Positions 42 through 36,625 of a stretch of DNA of 37,211 bases are shown one piece after another. The translations under genes and the position numbers were made by a program. The notes under the pieces are model-generated. The model was not told the DNA's origin, ran no database searches, and saw only the letters and a program-made list of their open reading frames with translations. Within the stretch, counting starts at the first letter, position 1; each line of letters starts with the position of its first letter. The DNA comes from Phycisphaerales bacterium (GTDB lineage: Bacteria; Planctomycetota; Phycisphaerae; Tepidisphaerales; Tepidisphaeraceae), in contig JAQGHP010000788.1 in assembly GCA_028288775.1 (NCBI GenBank), positions 1 through 37,211 of the forward strand, given 5' to 3'.

Positions 42-150
42 ACAGACGATTAAGATTAGGATTAAGATTAAGATTAGGATAGGAGCGCTTGGAGATGCGC
101 CTCAGAGCGCGATCTTAATCTTAATCCTAATCTTAATCTTAATCGTCTGT
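42..150. repeat. Long palindrome with hexamer (GATTAA/GATTAG) tandem-repeat arms
   Basis: Left arm ACAGACGATTAAGATTAGGATTAAGATTAAGATTAGGAT (42-80); right arm ATCTTAATCTTAATCCTAATCTTAATCTTAATCGTCTGT (112-150). They are reverse complements apart from A/G differences in the hexamers; the loop has a further GCGCT/AGCGC dyad. Confidence 0.9.
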
Positions 151-251
151 GCCTTCCCCGCGGACACGGCCAAACACACGGATTACGCCCGCCCGTCGCG
201 TAAATGGTTTGAACGTTCTTGGGGTGCGCGGGGCGGGGTAGCATTGTCTCC

Positions 252-764
252 ATGCGATTATTGCTTGCGCTGTGTCTGGGGTCGTTGGTGTTCATGACGG
301 GTTGCGCTGCGCAGGAATATGACATCGTCCAGCCGCCGGAGTTTCGGCGGCATATTGGCCGGGATCAGGACGCCATCATTCGGGCGGGGCCGGTGGAGTA
401 TCGGATGCGGGCGGTGGAGGATCGGCTGGTCGTGAGGATCTTTAACCGCAGTAACGGTGCGTTGCAGTTGCTGGGGGACGGGAGTTCGGTCACGGACCCG
501 TCGGGCAATTCCCAGTTGATTTTGAGCGGGACGATTCCGCCGGGCGGATTTAAGAAGGTCGTTCTGCCGCCGACGGTTTATTCGCCGCCGCCGGGTGCGA
601 GCGTCTACCGCGGCCCGGAGTTGGGCGGGGAGCCGGGACTGCACGAGCCGCTGATGGATCAGCCGGGGTTTGGCGCGGGGCGCCCGGCGTGGGAATGGCC
701 GGCGGGCGCGGAGGTGCAAGTGATGCTGACGTTTCAAGTCGATGGCAATCCGCCATTCTCGTAG
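252..764 (+). CDS. Putative lipoprotein, hypothetical
   Basis: MRLLLALCLGSLVFMTGCAAQ: signal peptide plus lipobox (MTGC). Confidence 0.75.
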   Translation: MRLLLALCLGSLVFMTGCAAQEYDIVQPPEFRRHIGRDQDAIIRAGPVEYRMRAVEDRLVVRIFNRSNGALQLLGDGSSVTDPSGNSQLILSGTIPPGGFKKVVLPPTVYSPPPGASVYRGPELGGEPGLHEPLMDQPGFGAGRPAWEWPAGAEVQVMLTFQVDGNPPFS

Positions 765-950
765 CGGTGGACGATTCGCAAGACGCCGACGTGAGATCGC
801 GGCGACACGGTTTAGCTTTGTACGGGTAGCCGCTTGCCGTCGGTCGTCCAGAGGAACGCGAGGTGTTGGCGGGGCTTGGGGGGAACGAGGATGCGAAGGA
901 GTGCGCGTGCCACGGAGATGGGATTGCAAATTGCAAGCGGCAACCCGCCA

Positions 951-1859
951 TCACGTCCCGAGGCCGAACCTCTCTTGCACGCGGCGTTGGACGATGGCGA
1001 AGACCCAACGGTCGGCGAGCATGCCTATGACAACCATCACGATCATCACCGCAACCACCCGGGCGATGTCAGAGAACTCGCGGCCCATCTGCAGCAGGTA
1101 ACCCAGGCCTCTCCACTTTTCGACCATGAAGATCAGCTCCGCGCCCATTAGTGAGCGCCAGGCGAACGAGAATCCCGTCCGCAGGCTCCCGGCCAGGGCG
1201 GGCAGGCTCGCCGGGAGCAGCACGTACCAGTAGAGCTTCCAGCCGCGTGCGCCGAGCATCAGCCCGGCGCGGGGGTAGAGTGGCGGGATCGTCCGCAGGC
1301 CGTCGCGCAGGACGAGCGAGATCGCCGAGAAACTGCCCATGATCAGCACGAACAGGATTCCCTTTTCGTTGATCCCGAAGCAGAGCACCGCCAGCGGAAC
1401 CCAGCAGACACTTGGGAGCGTTTGCAGGCCGAGGAACAGGGGGCCGAGCATCTTGTCCACCGCGTCGAAACGCCACATGAGCAAGCCGATCGTGCCGCCC
1501 AGCGCGACGCTGATCGCGAAGCCGGCGACGAGGCGCACGCCGCTGTACGAGATGGCCTTGACCAGGGGCGTGCCGTACCACGGCTCAACCTGGGGCCGGG
1601 CGGCGTTGGCGGCGCGATCCTCCGGCAGCGGGCGCGGCCAGCCGGTGTGGAGGGGTTCGCCGAAGGCGGTATGCACGCCGACCATTTCCAGCAGGGAATC
1701 GACGACGTGGCTGGGGGCGGGGAAGACCCAGAGCTTCCACCCGATGACCCTATATGCCGTCTCCCATGAGGCCAGAATCAGCACCCAGATCAGCAGGCGA
1801 TTGAGGCTTCCAGTACGTTTCGGCCATCTCGGCGTTGACACGGTTGACCTCGTCCTCAA
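951..1859 (-). CDS. ABC transporter permease (SsuC/TauC/NrtB-like)
   Basis: Multi-TM protein with permease-like motif and context 'GARGWKLYWYVLLPASLPALAGSLRTGFSFAWRSLMGAELI'. Start uncertain: this ORF start overlaps the upstream ATPase gene by 110 nt. Confidence 0.85.
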   Translation of the reverse strand: MRTRSTVSTPRWPKRTGSLNRLLIWVLILASWETAYRVIGWKLWVFPAPSHVVDSLLEMVGVHTAFGEPLHTGWPRPLPEDRAANAARPQVEPWYGTPLVKAISYSGVRLVAGFAISVALGGTIGLLMWRFDAVDKMLGPLFLGLQTLPSVCWVPLAVLCFGINEKGILFVLIMGSFSAISLVLRDGLRTIPPLYPRAGLMLGARGWKLYWYVLLPASLPALAGSLRTGFSFAWRSLMGAELIFMVEKWRGLGYLLQMGREFSDIARVVAVMIVMVVIGMLADRWVFAIVQRRVQERFGLGT

Positions 1860-2706
1860 TCTCCTTGCGGACCAGCTTCACGAGCTGGTTGATGTCGGAG
1901 CTGTCGAAGTTGCGGGGATGGGGGAGCGACACCTGCACCTCCCGGCGGATACGCCCGGGGTGCGCGTGCAGCACGATAATCCGGTCGGCAAGACGAACCG
2001 CCTCGCCAACGGAGTGAGTGACGAAAAGGATCGTCTTGTGCGTCTGGCACCAGAGTTCCTGCAATTGCTCATGAAGCAATGTACGCGTCTGTGCGTCCAA
2101 GGCGGCGAAGGGCTCGTCCATGAGCAACACCGCGGGGTTCATCACCAGTGCCCGGGCGATGGAGACGCGCTGCTTCATGCCGCCGGAAAGCTCGTGGATG
2201 AGTTTGTCGCGCTTGGGGACGAGGTGGACCAGCCGCAATGCGTCCTCGACGCGCCCCTCGCGCTCGGAGCGCGGGACGCCGGCCATCTTCAAGCCGAACT
2301 CGATGTTCTGGGCGGCAGTGAGCCAGGGGAATAGCCCGTGGTCCTGAAAGACCATCGCGCGGTCGGGGCCGGGGCCGTCGGCGGTCTGGCCATCCAGCGT
2401 GACCGTCCCGCTGTCGGGGGTGATCATGCCGGCGGCGACGTTGAGCAGTGTGCTCTTTCCGCACCCGCTTGGGCCGACGACGACTACAAATTCGCCGGGG
2501 GCGCAGGTGATGCTGACGTCGCGCAGGGCTCGGGCGCTGGTGCCGCCGAAGCTTTTGGAGATTCCGCTGAGGACCAGTTGGCCGCGCCCTGTCGTGGTAC
2601 CGGGCGCGGGACGAGCCCACGTGGGGATGGCCACCGGGCGCTCGGCGCGCGGGGCGGGCGGTTCCGGTGCGGACTTGGTGAGGATCGGCGTTGCGGGGGC
2701 TCGCAT
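1750..2706 (-). CDS. ABC transporter ATP-binding protein (SsuB/TauB-like)
   Basis: Walker A GPSGCGKST, signature LSGGMKQR, Walker B VLLMDEPF. Likely start MRAPATPILT at 2706. Confidence 0.93.
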   Translation of the reverse strand: MRAPATPILTKSAPEPPAPRAERPVAIPTWARPAPGTTTGRGQLVLSGISKSFGGTSARALRDVSITCAPGEFVVVVGPSGCGKSTLLNVAAGMITPDSGTVTLDGQTADGPGPDRAMVFQDHGLFPWLTAAQNIEFGLKMAGVPRSEREGRVEDALRLVHLVPKRDKLIHELSGGMKQRVSIARALVMNPAVLLMDEPFAALDAQTRTLLHEQLQELWCQTHKTILFVTHSVGEAVRLADRIIVLHAHPGRIRREVQVSLPHPRNFDSSDINQLVKLVRKEIEDEVNRVNAEMAETYWKPQSPADLGADSGLMGDGI

Positions 2707-2790
2707 GGTTACGTCTCCGGTGCAGTTCGCGGGCAAGAAATTGAATGGATGGTGTAAAGTGTAAGAGTCAAAAATGCGGAGCGGCGGGAG

Positions 2791-2834
2791 GGTGGACCTT
2801 CGGTCCGACCGCTACGCGGTGAGGGCAATCCACC
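2791..2834. repeat. Cruciform-like dyad with two inner hairpins
   Basis: Outer GGTGGA (2791-2796)/TCCACC (2829-2834); inner GGACC-ttc-GGTCC (2794-2806) and ACCGC-tac-GCGGT (2808-2820). Outer and first inner stems overlap by 3 nt, so they may be alternative pairings. Confidence 0.7.
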
Positions 2835-2839
2835 ACATT

Positions 2840-2930
2840 TCATTTTGACTTTTGCATTTTGCACTTCGCATTCAATCCTTCCGGTTCATTCTGCATTCTG
2901 CACTTTGCACTTTGCATTCTTCACTTTCCC
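2840..2930. repeat. Degenerate heptamer repeat tract (TTTTGCA / TTTGCAC / TTCTGCA)
   Basis: Direct reading: ...cattttgacttttgcattttgcacttcgcattc...ttctgcattctgcactttgcactttgcattcttcac. Confidence 0.75.
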
Positions 2931-2934
2931 CTCC

Positions 2935-3987
2935 CTACTGCTGCACCACTTCACGCAAAATACTCGTGTCGATCAAGGTGGCCAGGTTCGCTTGGCGCGG
3001 GGCGAACTCAAGATCGTAGGCCCAGGCGCCCATGGTGCGGATCGTGTCTGGGAGGGGGTCGTCCACGAAACGTACCCGCTTGATCGACGATGCCAGCACG
3101 CCCTTGGGGAGCTTTTTGCCATTGAGCGCGAGGAGCGCCGCCTCGAGCTGCGGGATGTATTTTTGCGGATCGTTATTCAGGCGCACCGTCCAGCGGTGAT
3201 GCACTTGCAGGACCTGACGGAGCACCTCGGGATGATCGCGCAGGAACTCGGGGGTCGTGATGACCAGCGTGAGGATGAAGGCGTGGCCGGGCCACAAGTC
3301 CTTCTCCTCGGCAATCGGGCGTGCGCCCGTCTCGGCGATGAGGCGCGAGCCCCAGGGCTCGGGCGCCCAGGCGGCGTCGATTTCGCCGCGGGACATCATG
3401 GCGGACTGCTCGGCGTTGGCGATGGGCATGACGTTGTGCGAGTCGGTCTGGTGCAGCACGTCCGTCACGTAATGGCGGGCGGCGATGTCCTGCGTGTTGC
3501 CGTGCTGAGGGGTGGCGATGCGTCGGCCGACCAGGTCTTCCATGCGCGTGATGCCCGAGCCTTTGCGGGCGACGATCAAGACGCCATTCTCCGCCGCCCC
3601 CGCGAGCACGCGAATCCCCTGCCCGCGGCTCTTCAAGTGCCCGTTCAGCACCGGGCCGGGGCCGACGTATCCGATGTCCACCTCGCCCGCCAACACCGCC
3701 TCGATGAGCGATGGACCGGCGTTGAACACTTTCGTGCTGAGCTTGGCCGGTTCAATCGCGGATGCGAATTCGCCTGAGGATACACCCAGCACCGCCTGGG
3801 CATGGGTCAGGTTGCCGAAGTATCCGATCCGCACCTCCGCTGGCGCGACGTGGGGCTGATCCTTTCGGCCGCAGCCCAGTCCCGCGGTAAGGAGCGCTAA
3901 CGAGAAAACGACCGCAAGCGTTGGATAGCCAAAAGGTCGGCGTGGATACAGTCGGGGGAAGGAATTTCTACTGCTCACAAAGATCAT
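2935..3987 (-). CDS. ABC transporter substrate-binding lipoprotein (SsuA/NrtA/TauA-like)
   Basis: Signal/lipobox LLTAGLGCGRKD; EVRIGYFGNLTHAQAVLG...; GEVDIGYVGPGPVLNG. Adjacent to matching ATPase and permease genes. Confidence 0.88.
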   Translation of the reverse strand: MIFVSSRNSFPRLYPRRPFGYPTLAVVFSLALLTAGLGCGRKDQPHVAPAEVRIGYFGNLTHAQAVLGVSSGEFASAIEPAKLSTKVFNAGPSLIEAVLAGEVDIGYVGPGPVLNGHLKSRGQGIRVLAGAAENGVLIVARKGSGITRMEDLVGRRIATPQHGNTQDIAARHYVTDVLHQTDSHNVMPIANAEQSAMMSRGEIDAAWAPEPWGSRLIAETGARPIAEEKDLWPGHAFILTLVITTPEFLRDHPEVLRQVLQVHHRWTVRLNNDPQKYIPQLEAALLALNGKKLPKGVLASSIKRVRFVDDPLPDTIRTMGAWAYDLEFAPRQANLATLIDTSILREVVQQ

Positions 3988-4074
3988 GTTTCTTCCCTGC
4001 CGCCGACTGTACGCTGACAAGATACGAATTTCCTATCGGGATACAAGACAAATAGAGATTCGCCCCGCAGGCCC

Positions 4075-4080
4075 TATAAT
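4075..4080 (+). promoter_or_regulatory. Candidate -10 box TATAAT just upstream of recR
   Basis: TATAAT at 4075-4080, with the recR ATG at 4090; no convincing -35. Confidence 0.35.
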
Positions 4081-4089
4081 CTTGCAACA

Positions 4090-4695
4090 ATGGCGAATTA
4101 TACCCAGAGCATCCAAAGTCTGATGAGCGAGCTGGCCCGTCTGCCGGGGATTGGCATGCGGTCGGCGGAGCGGATCGCGTTTCATCTGCTCAAGCAAAGC
4201 CCTGAAGATGCGCTGCGTTTGGCGGACGCGATTCGGGACGTGAAGACCCGCATCAAGCATTGCTCGATCTGTTATAACCTGACCGAGCAGGACCCCTGCG
4301 GCATCTGTGCCGATCCCAGCCGGGATCAGGCATTGGTGTGCGTTGTCGAGCAACCCAAGGACCTACTCGCCCTGGAGGCCACGGGCCTTTACCGCGGCGT
4401 CTACCACGTGCTGCTCGGTCGGATTTCCCCCCTGGAAGACATGGAGCCCGGCGACCTCACCATCGAGCCGCTGATGGAGCGGCTGACTTCAGGCACCGTC
4501 CGCGAAATCATCATGGGCACGAACCCCACGATGGAAGGCGACGGCACCGCGCTATATGTGCAGGGACTCGTCGCCGCTCGTTTCCCCAGCGTCCAACTCA
4601 CCCGCCTCGCCCGCGGCCTCCCCGCCGGGAGCAACATCGAGTACGCGAACAAGAACATCCTGGCAGACGCGATTAGTGGCAGGCAGAGAATGTGA
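4090..4695 (+). CDS. recR: Recombination mediator protein RecR
   Basis: SLMSELARLPGIGMRSAERIAFHLL; Cys4 zinc motif CSICYNLTEQDPCGIC; Toprim region ALVCVVEQPKDLLALEATGLYRGVYHVLLGRISPLE. Confidence 0.97.
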   Translation: MANYTQSIQSLMSELARLPGIGMRSAERIAFHLLKQSPEDALRLADAIRDVKTRIKHCSICYNLTEQDPCGICADPSRDQALVCVVEQPKDLLALEATGLYRGVYHVLLGRISPLEDMEPGDLTIEPLMERLTSGTVREIIMGTNPTMEGDGTALYVQGLVAARFPSVQLTRLARGLPAGSNIEYANKNILADAISGRQRM

Positions 4696-4711
4696 GACCT
4701 AAAACGTGAAG

Positions 4712-4776
4712 ACGTGAAACGTGAAACGTGAGAAGACTTTGGTTAGCCGAGTCTTCTCACGTTTCACGTTTCACGT
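4712..4776. repeat. 27-bp perfect hairpin with heptamer ACGTGAA arms downstream of recR
   Basis: ACGTGAAACGTGAAACGTGAGAAGACT (4712-4738) is the exact reverse complement of AGTCTTCTCACGTTTCACGTTTCACGT (4750-4776); 11-nt loop. Confidence 0.93.
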
Positions 4777-4813
4777 TTCATTCCCCCCACGTTTCAGGAC
4801 CACGTTTCCCGGC

Positions 4814-11827: not shown

Positions 11828-12202
11828 GCGCCGATGGAATTGGCCGCGGTGCGGAAAACCGCGAAGCCGCGAAAGCGCGAAGACTGACGCGAAGAAACAC
11901 CGAAAGTGTCGCCACAGATGAACACAGATAGACACGGATAGAAAACGCTTCCTGTGACATGGGCGTCCCGCCCATGCTCGATGCGCCCGGAGGCTCCGGG
12001 ATATATTGTTTTCGAATGCTTTGCTAATTCCTACGCAGCAGGCACGGGCGGGACGCCCGTGTCACGTTGGGGCTTGCTCCTCGTCTTATCCGTGTTCATC
12101 TGTGTCCCTCCGGGGCGACCATTCTTCCGCATTTCTTCGCGTCTGTCTTCGCGCCCTTCGCGGCTTCGCGGTTTTCCGCACCGCGGTTCGTTTCCACGGC
12201 GC
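11828..12202. repeat. ~375-bp nested palindrome with three layers of repeat arms
   Basis: Outer arms CCGCGGTGCGGAAAACCGCGAAGCCGCGAA (11844-11873) and its reverse complement (12157-12186), extended by GCGCCG.TGGAA; middle arms CACAGATGAACACAGATAGACACGGATA versus TTATCCGTGTTCATCTGTG; inner arms GTGACATGGGCGTCCCGCCCATGC (11954-11977) versus GCACGGGCGGGACGCCCGTGTCAC (12042-12065). Confidence 0.9.
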
Positions 12203-12422: not shown

Positions 12423-15317
12423 ATGGACTCGATGCAGACCACACACGCCGCCGACGTCGCCGTCGCTTCCTCCAGGCCAAATCCCCTGCTTCCTCACGCG
12501 GTTGTGGCGGCCGAAGTAATCGTTGCGTTGGGCAGTGACCCGCACTCTGGTCTCGTGGCGGCGCAGATCGAATTGCTCCGCGCCCGCCACGGCGCGAACC
12601 GACTGGCCGAAGCGCCGCCGCCTTCGCGATGGGGCCGGTTTCTGCGGCAGTTCAACGAGCTGATCATTTGGATCCTCATCCTCGCCGCCCTCATTTCCGG
12701 GTTCATGAAAGAGTGGACGGACGCGATCGCCATCGTGGCCATCGTGCTGCTCAACGGCGTGCTCGGGTTCCTTCAGGAAGAAAAAGCGGGCAAGGCACTG
12801 GCCGCCCTGCGAAAAATGTCGTCGCCCCAGGCGAAAGTCGTGCGCGACGGCGTCGTACAGATGCTCCCGGCGGAAGACCTACTGCCCGGCGACCGCGTCG
12901 AGCTCGAGGCCGGCGACTTCATTCCCGCGGATGTGCGCCTCGTCAGCGCATCGGGACTGCGCGTGCAGGAGTCGGCGCTGACCGGGGAATCGGCCCCGGT
13001 GGACAAGGACCCCGCCGCGATGCTCGATGGCGATACGCCGCTGGCCGAGCGCATCACCATGGCCTACATGGGCACGCTCGCCACGTCCGGCAAAGCGACG
13101 GCGGTGGTCGTCGCCACGGGCATGCGAACCGAGTTGGGAAAGATCGCCGGGCTGCTGCAACACGAAGACCTCGAGCCCACGCCGCTGCAAAGGCGGCTGG
13201 CGGAACTGGGCAAAGTGATCGTCGCGGCGTGCCTCGTGATCGTCGCGATCATCTTCGTGTTGCAGGTTCTGCGGGGAAGCCCCATTCACGAAGCATTCCT
13301 CCTTGCCGTCAGCCTCGCCGTCGCGGCGGTTCCCGAGGGTCTGCCCGCGGTGGTCACCATCGCCCTGGCCCTGGGCCTGCAGCGCATGGCGAAGCGCAAC
13401 GCCCTCGTCCGCAAGCTGCCGAGCGTGGAAACGCTGGGGTCGGTCACCGTCATCTGCTCCGACAAAACCGGCACGCTCACGCGCAACGAGATGACCGTCC
13501 GCGAGGTGTACGCGGCGGGCGGGCGGTACGAAGTGAGCGGGATTGGGTATTCGCCGGAGGGGAATTTTCGCAAGACCGCAAACGCGAGCGAGGGAGGGAA
13601 CGTCGCCCGTGGCACGGGCGGCCCGCCCGTGTCGGACGCGCTTCCCCCCGATGAACCGCGCGGCACTCCAGCCGATTCCACGGAACACGGGCGGGCCGCC
13701 CATGCCACGGCAGCGCAGCCGATACTCCAAGAGACCGCTCCCTCGCTCGACCCGGACCTGATCCGGGCGCTCACGATCGGCGCGTGGTGCAATTACGCCT
13801 ACCTCGCCCCGCCCGCGCCCGGCGAAGGAAAAAGCTGGCGTCTCACGGGCGATCCCACCGAAGGCGCGCTGATGGTGGCGGCGCTGAAGGCGGCCATTGT
13901 CACCGCCAACCGCGAGCACGAACTCCTCTACGAACTCCCCTTCGATTCCGACCGCAAGCTCATGACCGTCGTCGCCCGCGGGGCAGGCGGGCACGGAATC
14001 GCCTACACCAAGGGCGCGCCGGAAGTCGTGCTGGCCCGCTGCAATTTCGAGCGGCGGGCCGGCGCGATCGTCCCACTCACCCCGGCGCGACGGAGCGAAA
14101 TCCTCGCCGCCGGCTCGGACATGGCCGCCCGCGCGCTGCGGGTGCTGGGGCTGGCCTACCGCGACATGCCAGGGGTCTGGCCGGAAGATTGTTTGGAGTG
14201 CGAGTTGGTATTCAGCGGGCTGGCGGGACTGTTTGATCCGCCGCGAGAGGAGGCGCGCCCGGCGGTGGACAAGTGCCACCGCGCCGGCATCCGCCCGGTC
14301 ATGATCACCGGCGACCACCCCGCCACCGCGCTCGCCGTCGCGCGGGACCTGGGCATCGCCCGCGAAACCGATTCCGCACTCACCGGCAAGCGCTTGGACG
14401 AACTGGACGACGACGCCCTAGCCCATGTCGTCGAGCAGACGCCCGTCTACGCCCGCGTCACGGCCGAGCACAAGCTGCGCGTCGTGCGGGCGTGGCAGGC
14501 CAAAGGCCACGTCGTCGCGATGACCGGCGACGGGGTCAACGACGCGCCCGCGGTAAAGTCCGCCGATATCGGCATTGCCATGGGCCAGGCGGGCACGGAC
14601 GTCACGCGCGAGGCCGCGGACATGGTGCTGACGGACGACAACTTCGCCTCCATCGTCGCGGCCATCGAAGAGGGCCGCGGGATTTTCGACGACATCCAGA
14701 AGTTCGTTCACTACTTGCTGAGCTGCAACACGGGCGAAGTGTTGGTGATGTTCGTGGGCGCGCTGGCCGGGTGGCCCGCGCCGCTGGTGGCGATCCAGAT
14801 CTTGTGGGTGAACCTGGTGACCGATGCGCTACCGGCGTTGGCGCTGGGGATCGAGCGGCCCGAGCCGGATATCATGGAGCGCCGCCCCCGCCCGCCGCGG
14901 GAAGGGGTCATTACACTCCGTCGCGGCCTGCTCATGCTCTTCCACGGCACGCTCATCGCCGGAGCGACCATCGCGGGCTTCGTGATGGTGCGGCGGAGCA
15001 GCCCCAACTCCATTGACGCAGCCCGGACGGTTGCATTTTGTATTTTGTCCTATTCGCAGCTCTTCTATTCCTTCGCCTGCCGCAGCCAGCGGTACACGCT
15101 GCCGAAGCTGGGGATCATGACGAATCCATACCTGCTGGGCGCGATCGTGATCTCGGGGCTGATACAGCTCGCCGTGTTCCTGCCGTTCCTGCGCGGGGTG
15201 TTCCACGTGACGTGGTTGACGTGGGAATGGCCGCTGGTGCTGCTGTTGGCGCTGACACCGGTGACGATCATTGAGGTGCTGAAGATCCTTCGGGCGGGCA
15301 TATTCCCAAAAACGTGA
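12423..15317 (+). CDS. Cation-transporting P-type ATPase (P2A / Ca2+-ATPase-like)
   Basis: [15 protein letters not shown] phosphorylation motif; [43 protein letters not shown]-terminal [26 protein letters not shown]. Contains an in-frame palindromic repeat at 13609-13708. Confidence 0.96.
13609..13708. repeat. REPIN-like inverted palindrome pair inside the P-type ATPase CDS
   Basis: GTGGCACGGGCGGCCCGCCCGTGT (13609-13632) and ACACGGGCGGGCCGCCCATGCCAC (13685-13708) are reverse complements at 23/24 positions, around a 52-bp core; open in frame ([11 protein letters not shown]...[11 protein letters not shown]). Confidence 0.93.
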
Positions 15318-16512: not shown

Positions 16513-16613
16513 GATTGCAAAGTGAAAATTTGGGGACAAGTGGGAGGACGGCCTGAGTCGTAACTCCGCCTTTCAATTTTCATTTTGCAATTTGCACTTT
16601 GCAATTTGCAATC
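16513..16613. repeat. Heptamer-style palindrome (TTGCAAA/TTTGCAA units)
   Basis: GATTGCAAA (16513-16521) pairs with TTTGCAATC (16605-16613); right side is a tract of CATTTTGCAATTTGCACTTTGCAATTTGCAATC. Confidence 0.75.
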
Positions 16614-16694: not shown

Positions 16695-17933
16695 ATGCAC
16701 GTCGTCATCTTCGAGGCGTCTCGCTGGCATACGTTTGCCCCGCTTTCCCTGAGCCGGCCGGTGTTTATGCTGGCGACGGGGATGAGCACCCTTTTGCAAA
16801 AGCAGTTGCGGCACCTCAAGCCCCCGCGCCTCACGCTCTGGGTGCGGCCGGAATTGGAGGAATTCTGCCGCCAGCGGGTCGCCCCCAAAACGGGCGTGCC
16901 GACGCAGATCAATGCGCCGCTCGACGACGAGCCGGCGCTGCTGATTAACGGCAGGACGGTGCATTTCGGGAAGTTTGAGTATCCGCCGCACGAAGCGGTG
17001 ATGGCGGATGACGGCGACGTGGTGCGTGCCGCGATGACGCATGATCCGGGCCTTTCCCCCCGCGACGCCTGGGACCGCACCGAGCGCTGGCTGCGGTTGC
17101 TCGAGCTCCCGCAGATGCCCGGCCAGGGGCGCTGCGTCGAATCGCTGGTGGACCTGATTCATTGGAACGACGAGTCGCTGGTGGAGGATTTCGCGCACCT
17201 GGAAACGCCCAGTTCGCCGCGGCCCGCGGGGCCGTATCACCTCGTCGAGGAGCGGGACGTGTGGCTGGGGCCGGGCGTGAAGCTCGACCCCGGGTGCGTG
17301 CTGGATGCGTCGAAGGGGCCGGTGGTGATCGGCGAAGGGGCCACGATCGGCGCGAACGCGGTGTTGCAGGGTCCCTGCTACATCGGCCCGCATGCGACGA
17401 TATCGCCGGTCGCGCAGATCCGACCCGGCACCAGCATCGGCCCCATGTGCAAGGTGGGCGGCGAAGTGTCCGCGTCGATCATGCTCGGCTACTCGAACAA
17501 GCCGCACGAAGGGTTTCTCGGCCACAGCTACGTCGGCAAGTGGGCAAACCTCGGCTCCGGGACCACCACGAGCAATTTGAAAAATACCTACGGCGAGATC
17601 AGCCTGAAACTCGGCGAGCACGACGTGCCCACCGGCCGCCGATTTTTGGGCTCCCTCATTGGCGACCATTCCAAAACCGGCATCCTCACCCGCCTGTCGA
17701 GCGGCACCTACATCGGCTTCTCCAGCATGCTCGCCGGCTCGGGCGTCGCGCCGCGGTACGTCCCGAGCTACACCTTCTGGACCGACCGCGGATCGGAGCC
17801 GTATCGGTTCGAAAAATCCATGGAAGTCGCGAAGCGCGTATTCGATCGCAGAGACCGGGCGTGGACCGCGACGGACGAAGCCGTAATGCGCTACGTCGCG
17901 GAGACGGCGTCGAAGGTGGAAGGGAAGGAGTGA
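16695..17933 (+). CDS. GlmU-like sugar nucleotidyltransferase/acyltransferase (alternative bacterial GlmU type)
   Basis: N-terminal SLSRPVFMLATGMSTLLQKQLRHL; left-handed beta-helix hexapeptides VVIGEGATIGANAVLQGPCYIGPHATISPVAQIRPGTSIGPMCKVGGEVS; SYVGKWANLGSGTTTSNLKNTYGEISL. Confidence 0.85.
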   Translation: MHVVIFEASRWHTFAPLSLSRPVFMLATGMSTLLQKQLRHLKPPRLTLWVRPELEEFCRQRVAPKTGVPTQINAPLDDEPALLINGRTVHFGKFEYPPHEAVMADDGDVVRAAMTHDPGLSPRDAWDRTERWLRLLELPQMPGQGRCVESLVDLIHWNDESLVEDFAHLETPSSPRPAGPYHLVEERDVWLGPGVKLDPGCVLDASKGPVVIGEGATIGANAVLQGPCYIGPHATISPVAQIRPGTSIGPMCKVGGEVSASIMLGYSNKPHEGFLGHSYVGKWANLGSGTTTSNLKNTYGEISLKLGEHDVPTGRRFLGSLIGDHSKTGILTRLSSGTYIGFSSMLAGSGVAPRYVPSYTFWTDRGSEPYRFEKSMEVAKRVFDRRDRAWTATDEAVMRYVAETASKVEGKE

Positions 17934-18003
17934 AGACTGAGACCTGACGGCGAAAGTGCCCCGGATGGTATGGCTTGGCTCTGTGCTTCAAGAACAAATC
18001 CTT

Positions 18004-18107
18004 TCACGCCGGGTACGAGCGATAGCGAGGCCCCGGATTCTTCGGGGTAGGGGAACTCTCCGGTCCCTCGAATCCGGGGCCTCGCTTTCAGCTCGTACCC
18101 GGCGTGA
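18004..18107. repeat. ~104-bp palindrome with ~37-nt arms
   Basis: TCACGCCGGGTACGAGC-gata-GCGAGGCCCCGGATTC (18004-18040) versus GAATCCGGGGCCTCGC-tttca-GCTCGTACCCGGCGTGA (18070-18107). Confidence 0.95.
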
Positions 18108-18158
18108 ATAGACTCAGTACTCAGTCCTCAGTCCTTGCTATCAGAAAGGGTTTCCGAC

Positions 18159-19065: not shown

Positions 19066-19253
19066 CAGCCCCGGAGGGGCGTAAGAAGCGTTAGATATTC
19101 GAACCATGTCCGATGTTCGGGGGATCCGTTCGGGCAAGGGACGATCGGAGCCGGGCAGTGTCGGCCCGGCTCCGAATGGATTTCGTCGGCCACGCAATTT
19201 GATCGTCAGAGGCGGAATGGGAATTCAGCGCTTCTTACGCCCCTCCGGGGCTG
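19066..19253. repeat. Perfect 25-bp inverted repeat pair (CAGCCCCGGAGGGGCGTAAGAAGCG)
   Basis: CAGCCCCGGAGGGGCGTAAGAAGCG (19066-19090); exact reverse complement at 19229-19253; internal hairpin CGGAGCCGGG (19146-19155)/CCCGGCTCCG (19165-19174). Confidence 0.93.
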
Positions 19254-19273
19254 TGCGCCATTCGGGATCTTTT

Positions 19274-19320
19274 CCCACGGCTTGCGCCGTGGGCTAAGTT
19301 CTTACGCCCCTCCGGGGCTG
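19274..19320. repeat. CCCACGGC-ttgc-GCCGTGGG hairpin plus third copy of TTCTTACGCCCCTCCGGGGCTG
   Basis: Hairpin 19274-19293; direct repeat of 19232-19253 at 19299-19320. Confidence 0.9.
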
Positions 19321-19370
19321 ATCGCGTGGGCTTCAGAGCCGCACGGTTTCGTAAGTCAACATTGAAATCA

Positions 19371-23372: not shown

Positions 23373-23705
23373 GCGAAGGAAATGAACGCCAAGAGAGCAA
23401 CACGCGCGCGGGATTCAGTGAAGCGACGGGCGTATCACTTTCGAAATGAAATCGAACGCAGAGACGCAGAGACGCAGAGGTAGGAAAGAGAGAGAACTGC
23501 TGGGCCGCCCTCAGAATTCTCGAAGGGCCTTATACTCAAGCCAACAATCCTCTCCGCGCTTTCCTCTGCGTCTCGGCGTCTCTGCGTTGGATTTTATTGC
23601 CCGGACGGCCGGACGTGTCGCAGCAAGAACAGCGCAACCACTTCCCCGTATTCCTTGGCGTTTCCAGTCTTGGCGTCCTTGGCGTCTGGCATTCATTTCC
23701 TTCGC
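23373..23705. repeat. Nested palindrome: outer GCGAAGGAAATGAAYGCCA arms, inner GCAGAGACGCAGAGAC arms
   Basis: Outer GCGAAGGAAATGAACGCCA (23373-23391) versus TGGCATTCATTTCCTTCGC (23687-23705). Inner AATCGAACGCAGAGACGCAGAGACGCAGAGG (from 23450) versus CCTCTGCGTCTCGGCGTCTCTGCGTTGGATT (to 23593). Right outer flank has repeated CTTGGCGT. Confidence 0.9.
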
Positions 23706-29004: not shown

Positions 29005-29080
29005 CGCAGTCAATTCAAGACTCATCGCGGAGACACGGAGGCGTGCCCAAGTTTCCGTGGCCGCGCAGTTCAGGGATGAA

Positions 29081-29226
29081 AATCGAACGCAGAGATGCCG
29101 AGACGCAGAAGTAGGAAAGAGAGAGAATGAGTGAGCCGAATGCCGGCCCCTCGCGAAATCCTGGGCACCCAGAAGCATTCCTTTTCTCCCTCCTACCTCT
29201 GCGCCTCGGCATCTCTGCGTTCGATT
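29081..29226. repeat. ~146-bp palindrome, same family as the inner part of 23450-23593
   Basis: AATCGAACGCAGAGATGCCGAG (29081-29102) is the perfect reverse complement of CTCGGCATCTCTGCGTTCGATT (29205-29226); pairing extends imperfectly through GTAGGAAAGAGAG/CTCCCTCCTAC. Confidence 0.94.
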
Positions 29227-29241
29227 CTCTCCCATTCCCTC

Positions 29242-29271
29242 TTGGCGACTTGGCGACTTGGCGACTTGGCG
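29242..29271. repeat. Octamer tandem repeat TTGGCGAC (~3.75 copies)
   Basis: cTTGGCGACTTGGCGACTTGGCGACTTGGCGg. Confidence 0.92.
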
Positions 29272-31105: not shown

Positions 31106-31307
31106 CATGGGCGGCCCGCCCATGAAGTGGCACGGGCAGCTTGCCCGTGGTCACGGTACTCCGTGACATTCGGCCGGTGCTCTGGCCGAAGAAAGCAAAA
31201 TGTGGCACAGCCGCCCCCGGCTGTGTTCCGCTGCAGGCGGGAGAAGAAAGACACAGCCGAGGGCGGCTGTGCCACACGGGTCCTGTAGGTTTGGCTCCGA
31301 ACCTAGC
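31106..31307 (+). repeat. Composite multi-hairpin cassette, copy A
   Basis: Successive hairpins: CATGGGCGGCCCGCCCATG (31106-31124); CACGGGCA-gct-TGCCCGTG (31131-31149); GTCACGG-tact-CCGTGAC (31150-31167); TTCGGCC...GGCCGAA (31169-31190); TGTGGCACAGCCGCC.../...GGCGGCTGTGCCACA arms (31201-31276); AGGTTtggctccgAACCT. Confidence 0.92.
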
Positions 31308-35087: not shown

Positions 35088-35118
35088 CCTTCACCGTCAT
35101 TCTCCACGTTGCGCCATC

Positions 35119-35210
35119 GTGGCACGGGTTTTCAACCCGTGCTAGGTTCGGAGGGAGGCGAGCGACGCTATCTGCCAACGCATTTCGCACGGGTTGAAAA
35201 CCCGTGCCAC
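35119..35210. repeat. REPIN-like inverted palindrome pair with GGGTTTTCAACCC hairpins
   Basis: GTGGCACGGGTTTTCAACCCGTGC (35119-35142) and its exact reverse complement GCACGGGTTGAAAACCCGTGCCAC (35187-35210), 44-bp core. Confidence 0.96.
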
Positions 35211-35300
35211 GCCAACGCCATCTGTTCGCCCGAAATTCCGCCCACTCTGCAATTGCGATGCATCAGCGGTGCGCCCATGTCGCAACAACGCAAACTTCCC

Positions 35301-36287: not shown

Positions 36288-36393
36288 CACCGCGCCGCAG
36301 AGCGAAGTCCCCGTGTCGATGAAGTTGTGCATGGGATGCTCCTTCGCCGTTCGATTGCGAGATCCTATCAAACGGATAATCGCGTGCGCGTCC

Positions 36394-36606
36394 CATGGCA
36401 CGGGCGGCCCGCCCGTGGGCGGCGGCACTCTGCCGCGTTGACCGTTACTCGGGCATGTGTGGCACAGCCGCCCTCGGCTGTGTTTTTATCTTCCGCCTTC
36501 GGCGGAATCACAGCCGGGGGCGGCTGTGCCACATTGCTTTCTTCAATCCGAGTACGGATCGAACGTCACGGAGTAGCGCGACCATGGGCGGGCCGCCCGT
36601 GCCACG
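36394..36606 (-). repeat. Composite multi-hairpin cassette, copy B (triple nested)
   Basis: Outer CATGGCACGGGCGGCCCGCCCGTGG (36394-36418) versus CCATGGGCGGGCCGCCCGTGCCACG (36582-36606); inner TGTGGCACAGCCGCC.../...GGCGGCTGTGCCACA (36458-36533); innermost TTCCGCC-ttc-GGCGGAA. Minus strand matches copy A in order. Confidence 0.93.
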
Positions 36607-36625
36607 AAATGCGGCCAGCCAAAGC

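Follow-up and report, generated by a model that had tools for sequence, protein, structure and literature searches.

How can the two arms of a palindrome stay alike when they are built of short tandem repeats whose unit differs from one palindrome to the next? This question is raised by several structures in the window, i.e. the whole stretch of 37,211 nucleotides analysed here, which is one contig (C310) of a 6.29-Mb Phycisphaerales genome in 801 contigs. Array statistics were collected from 556 kb sampled from the window's own genome, in which strict tandem arrays with a period of 6-9 bp were recorded; an array was scored as partnered when an inverted or a direct copy of it lay within 400 bp, with swapped flanks as the control. 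Syntenic sites were compared with a sister species (G001), the sole same-genus neighbour compared, the genome of which is incomplete.

Tandem-armed palindromes in the window

The palindrome at the left end of the window has two 39-nt arms composed of GATTAA/GATTAG hexamers. Inverted-repeat comparison placed the left arm at 42-80 on the forward strand and the right arm, which is 92% complementary to it, at 112-150 on the reverse strand. The arms enclose an asymmetric centre (CGCGCTTNNAGATGCGCCTCAGAGCGCG, 81-111, forward strand) that is conserved in the family, of which 24 copies were listed. Downstream of recR (4090-4695) lies a palindrome of ACGTGAA heptamers from a dispersed family, with a left arm at 4712-4738 (forward strand) and a right arm at 4750-4776 (reverse strand) that form a perfect 27-bp complement; its predicted folding energy is -53.5 kcal/mol. 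RNA folding gave z-scores of -11.5 for 42-150, -11.3 for 4696-4790, -4.0 for 16513-16613 and -8.0 for 23450-23593.

All five structures named by the sequence-only reading are present, although two of them required correction. The palindrome described at 16513-16613 exists but is asymmetric: the TTTGCAN palindrome spans 16514-16605, with a 17-nt stem between 16514-16530 and 16589-16605, and its right array (16571-16612) has about six TTTGCAN units, whereas the left arm has only about two. The structure at 11844-12186 does possess inverted CGCGAAG arrays, but it consists of several concentric palindromes rather than a single one, in which a core of GTGACATGGGCGTCCCGCC is surrounded first by a CACAGATAG-type layer and then by two layers of CGCGAAG. 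The outermost left layer (11828-11873, forward strand) pairs at 85% with 12157-12202, the right part of this layer having about 20 or more copies in the sister species. The second CGCGAAG layer (11875-11904, forward strand) pairs at 87% with 12125-12154, and the third (11908-11940, forward strand), of CACAGATAG/ACACGGATAG-type units, pairs at 82% with 12087-12119; inverted-repeat comparison assigned the right-hand layers to 12087-12202 on the reverse strand. The innermost palindrome, GTGACATGGGCGTCCCGCCC, occupies 11954-12065, with arms at 11954-11985 and 12034-12065 (84%). The GCAGAGAC octamer palindrome lies at 23445-23598, with arms at 23445-23480 and 23563-23598 (92%).

Three further structures in the window had not been reported by that reading. 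A degenerate TGCAAAR/GTCAAAATG palindrome with approximate limits (2751-2876) is located between two ABC importer genes; the strict partner test returned no pair for it, and its part at 2838-2876 matches copies in the sister species at 94-97%. A CTCAGTC palindrome (17925-18136) contains in its loop a separate palindrome (18003-18108), which has sister-species copies at 87-90%. A second GCAGAGAC palindrome (29078-29229; arms 29078-29122 and 29185-29229, 89%) is the longest inverted repeat of the window and forms one family with that at 23445-23598, with copies also in the sister species. The array scan and partner test also gave a CTTGGCGA octamer array (29241-29271, reverse strand) that has no inverted partner.

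Inverted pairing across the genome

The sampled 556 kb contain 56 strict arrays of period 6-9, compared to none in a third-order Markov control. An inverted partner within 400 bp accompanies 35 of the 56 arrays and a direct partner accompanies three, with 3.9% in the swapped-flank control. Chance is thus excluded by the array count together with the excess of inverted partners over both controls, and the inverted-array palindromes are real and genome-wide. It had been stated beforehand that arrays mostly without an inverted partner would overturn the observation; the partnered fraction is 57-75%, depending on the threshold. Scanning periods from 5 to 12 revealed that 41 of 61 arrays have a period of 7, and none a period of 5 or 11. 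Five of the six family mates sampled show the pattern (pooled, 20/32 arrays with an inverted and 2/32 with a direct partner), and in two class-level genomes none of five arrays had an inverted partner.

It is hardly credible that the palindromes are chance or artefact, either slippage arrays lying near reverse copies or repeats mis-assembled in a fragmented genome. The 801-contig assembly and the position of some copies, including that at 42-150, at contig edges would agree with such an origin; however, the inverted-partner statistics rule it out, and other assemblies show the same pattern, among them G020 (5/5 arrays) and G013 (2/4), the latter a genome in one contig, while array presence is associated across syntenic gaps of two species, as described below.

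Repeat units form dispersed families

The units had been taken as specific to each locus. This was not borne out, and a locus-specific origin was rejected, as ACGTGAA, GATTAA and other units occur as dispersed families. The units are a small shared vocabulary with a patchy distribution. Each tandem-armed palindrome falls into one of a restricted set of small families with arms of 6-8-bp units, and the abundance of a family differs strongly between sister species. For the ACGTGAA family, AACGTGAAACGTGA matches this genome 81 times, the sister species three times and ten family mates 0-3 times each, from which a recent expansion is probable. The ACGTGAA arms are found at many places, and these copies often share the inner stem GTGAGAAGAC..GTCTTCTCAC, the loop of which is about 13 nt long and variable. 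The exact ACGTGAA core gave no match in 84,980 species genomes, a set from which the genome studied here was possibly left out, and a literature search for the repeat strings found no paper.

The GATTAA element is present at about 40 places in this genome and about 14 in the sister species, with its asymmetric centre conserved; beyond the genus, the ten genomes searched gave weak matches only. This centre has no fixed orientation relative to the gene strand (8 vs 6). Inverted TGCAAAR arrays were found in no other genus of the same family of bacteria, and match exactly in Planctomycetota, Chloroflexota, Latescibacterota and Acidobacteriota contigs, although any single contig of these public assemblies may have been binned wrongly. 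Overall, the interior is conserved among GATTAA elements and partly shared among ACGTGAA elements; TGCAAAR elements from different phyla have unrelated interiors.

Unit replacement at syntenic sites

The site downstream of recR carries inverted arrays of four units: ACGTGAA in this genome, AAGTARA in the sister species, GTAGACR/GTGGATR in G021 and ATTGCGG in G005, the last two representing two further genera. The convergent neighbour is shared by this genome, the sister species and G021. In G003 the site has a TTGATAG array without a clear partner, and the other genera compared at recR have no array downstream. Further sites were compared on five contigs picked for carrying arrays, against the one incomplete sister genome and with a home-made gene caller. 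Inverted arrays are present in both species with a changed unit at recR, L084:1117, L087:9682, L087:10723 and L016:1388, the change at L087:10723 being between an octamer and a heptamer. The unit is kept at L084:1545, L038:1387, L038:7074, L077:3355 and window 16513, where the sister species has a syntenic TGCAAAR palindrome; at L084:1545 the arms read identically in both species and the centre has diverged. Nothing comparable was seen in the sister species at L077:1769, L087:11683, window 23456 and window 29078.

Scoring of 41 syntenic gaps gave arrays in both species in nine, in this genome only in six, in the sister species only in three and in neither in 23 (Fisher p=0.003), where the choice of array-bearing contigs raises the rate but affects the between-species association less, and a few of the gaps counted as positive hold CCCTCTCC palindromes in place of true arrays. 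The expectation that architecture outlasts sequence is thus supported by the four units at recR and by the other sites with a changed unit; comparison of unit identity at the same locus, as had been recommended, revealed that both arms change together at recR and at other syntenic sites. The hairpin beside a given gene is often retained in the sister species with another repeat word, a sign that its shape may be maintained or copied without regard to sequence.

Gene context and nesting

Nearly all paired elements are located outside called genes. The 63 elements in gaps comprise 43 between same-strand, 17 between convergent and three between divergent genes, compared to 57%, 18% and 26% expected from intergenic length. 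In the same-strand gaps, 34 of the 43 elements are nearer to the upstream stop, with a median distance of 26 nt versus 75 nt to the downstream start. Purine-rich left arms account for 33 of 40 elements, compared to 59 of 127 other inverted repeats. The p-values for these left arms (4e-5) and for the scarcity in divergent gaps (3e-5) are both optimistic, because copies of the same family are not independent.

Among the intergenic inverted repeats whose loop measures at least 60 nt, 26 of 66 hold another inverted repeat in the loop, compared to one of 62 equal-length flanking non-coding windows; the 26 are not all independent, as some composite families recur and a nest with several layers contributes more than once. 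The inner and outer repeats mostly have their centres within a few bases of each other, and arm identity gave no clear age order within nests (12 vs 8 for the inner or the outer repeat as the younger). Such concentric nests fit insertion into short loops and outward extension of a hairpin alike.

Origin and upkeep of the palindromes

Between the arms there is no excess of G-U wobble on the gene strand (20 G-U vs 36 A-C), so transcript pairing is apparently not what keeps the arms alike; in the GATTAA family the mismatches on the centre-oriented strand are 28 G-U versus 18 A-C, which is not significant. Maintenance of arm identity by selection on the RNA was rejected, the wobble test being negative or in the wrong direction. 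Unit variants follow the same order in both arms at window 4712, L062 and L084:1545, and in one syntenic GATTAA/GAGTAA pair of the two species the centre is inverted. The variant order, the joint change of the arms and the inverted centre fit DNA-level copying between arms. An inverted centre is the product expected from exchange between arms, and could also result from an independent insertion in the opposite orientation. Some GATTAA copies have unequal unit numbers in their two arms, so arm copying is not continuous; such inequality fits slippage added on copying. The sequence-only reading knew of no mechanism for the symmetry, which was too strong, as template switching (PMC8794818) and the inverted heptamer pairs of Xanthomonas (PMC4692102) are already known.

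We propose, at evenly balanced confidence, that the elements are dispersed non-coding palindromes of gene 3' ends, whose arms are copied by template switching in addition to slippage, one palindrome following another at sites that tolerate them or resemble terminators. At the hairpin, a polymerase could use one arm as the template for the other by template switching, through which the arms would be both made and kept symmetrical, and slippage would change the unit number within them. A new palindrome would land at or within an existing hairpin and replace the old arms as those decay; the site would thus remain palindromic despite the change of unit, because the arriving palindrome succeeds a decaying one. 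The sites would persist where gene 3' ends tolerate a strong two-way hairpin, or use it as a terminator or 3'-end barrier. Dispersal of the families would require a further process besides arm copying.

The same elements might instead be bidirectional intrinsic terminators, selected on the transcript hairpin, with the arrays a cheap way to a long stem whose sequence is free so long as it pairs. A stable predicted hairpin shortly after the stop codon is indeed found, as in intrinsic (Rho-independent) terminators; the 3' location, the scarcity in divergent gaps, the stable folds, the arms at L084:1545 that are identical in both species around a diverged centre, and the outward 10 nt, which are T-rich (0.335 vs 0.204), all agree with this explanation. 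However, five or more T in 10 occur in only 22 of the 80 outward flanks, the mismatches lean towards A-C rather than G-U, and some sites of this genome have no such element in the sister species. We consider terminator selection unlikely as the explanation of the arrays, though the position, the stability and the T-rich outer flanks suggest that the elements may act as two-way terminators or 3'-end barriers.

Descent from non-autonomous REP/MITE-type elements is doubtful, yet deserves some weight. Such elements would be moved by a transposase from elsewhere, which might favour the loops of hairpins close to the ends of genes; their symmetry would be that of terminal inverted repeats. The dispersed multi-copy families with a recent species-specific expansion, the nesting in loops, the presence of an element here at one or more sites that are closed in the sister species (L087:11683), and the Y1 transposases detected in 12 of 12 genomes searched point in this direction. 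At the closed site, however, no clear target site duplication was recognised, and the flanks of other sites are too diverged; for the tandem-armed palindromes, neither a footprint of insertion nor a mobilising enzyme came to light. The centres of the TGCAAAR elements are unrelated across phyla, unlike copies of one transposon. This genome has four Y1_Tnp matches, and the two whose flanks were inspected bear other ends, namely Acido-Lenti-1 repeats and a GGGGACGCAGTTAGT repeat. Neither of these two loci, out of the four matches, has a RAYT with tandem-unit ends, and on their evidence a RAYT/Y1 transposase is an unlikely mobiliser.

Returning to template switching with succession, a more general version is that gene 3' ends inherit hairpins, where new tandem-armed palindromes of any unit arise or are captured and replace the old, the architecture being inherited and the sequence not; we put this forward tentatively and hold it to be rather improbable. 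If true, the secondary structure of a site in a bacterial genome can survive full replacement of the underlying sequence, and the origin and upkeep of intergenic hairpins, by mutational copying, mobility or selection, become testable by comparing close strains. Conserved intergenic features would then be overlooked wherever sequence alignment is the only tool, both in Planctomycetota and in other phyla with the same repeat words.

Comparison with known repeat systems

REP elements (Di Nocera et al. 2013, PMC3733652) are extragenic palindromes, 20-40 bp long, that bear an unpaired GTAG or CGTC tag. Similar to REPs, the present elements are extragenic palindromes downstream of genes, lie in same-strand and convergent gaps and fall into several families within one genome; however, REPs have no tandem-unit arms (PMC3733652). 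Among the copies read, the REP tag is absent: GATTAA copies end in paired ...TCGTCTGT, and ACGTGAA copies have no constant tag. The elements were not classed as REP or MITE, because they lack, or do not display, the defining tags or footprints.

The TAACTGA heptamer repeats of Beggiatoaceae, Cyanobacteria and Bacteroidetes, with 169 direct sets and one indirect (PMC4679880), are likewise intergenic heptamer arrays of patchy distribution across phyla, but they are direct and lie upstream of start codons, whereas the arrays here are inverted and lie 3' of stops. In replication template-switch (quasipalindrome) mutation, one event can create or re-match a long stem (PMC8794818), so that both arms change jointly, as they do here. 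Those cases concern RNA genes; the tandem-armed stems described here are dispersed between genes, and template switching is the mechanism proposed for them.

The closest resemblance is to the GGGAATC heptamer arrays of Xanthomonas (Rehm et al. 2015, PMC4692102), which form 70 and 75 convergent inverted pairs in two genomes, lie at a mean of 28 nt from the upstream ORF versus 160 nt from the downstream one, and are rare between divergent genes. Both systems comprise dispersed intergenic heptamer arrays with a nearby inverted second array; in both, the arrays sit closer to the ORF upstream and seldom occur in divergent gaps (here 3/63). The Xanthomonas arrays have a single unit and are discussed chiefly for G-quadruplexes; most units here, including ACGTGAA, TGCAAAR and GATTAA, have no G-run such as GGG. 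Many units coexist here, with nesting and with unit exchange at syntenic sites. Altogether, the elements belong with the Xanthomonas-type inverted heptamer pairs, to which they add the multiplicity of units, the nesting and the replacement of one unit by another at the same site.

A Y1 transposase gene of the REP type is bracketed by matches to the Rfam family 'Acido-Lenti-1 RNA' (RF01687) that form inverted ends, both in the genome from which the window derives and in one other genus. Matches to this family lie at 19066-19321 of the window and, in two further stretches, at 1781-1940 and 2439-2531 of L037 and at 1270-1314 and 1936-1980 of L258. Because of this inverted arrangement around the gene, RF01687 appears to represent a terminal repeat belonging to a RAYT-like element, instead of or in addition to an sRNA. 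In another stretch, L038 (13038-13902), inverted AACGGGGACGCAGTTAGT-type repeats are located on both sides of a Y1 transposase gene.

A recurrent composite element, in which the loop of a CCCTCTCCC...GGGGGAGAGGG palindrome holds a GTAG-tagged, REP-like GTAGGGTGGGC palindrome, was found in the sampled stretches L051 (1438-1663), L054 (948-1168) and L065 (8959-9182). Also present in the window are GTGGCACGGGC/GTGGCACAGCCG-type palindromes that are rich in GC and whose arms lack tandem units (13607-13710, 31201-31276, 35118-35211 and 36387-36613); some are nested, with 36396-36604 enclosing 36458-36533. On the minus strand of the window, an NMT1-type ABC importer (951-3834) consists of a permease, an ATPase and a binding protein, two genes of which are separated by a degenerate TGCAAAR palindrome.
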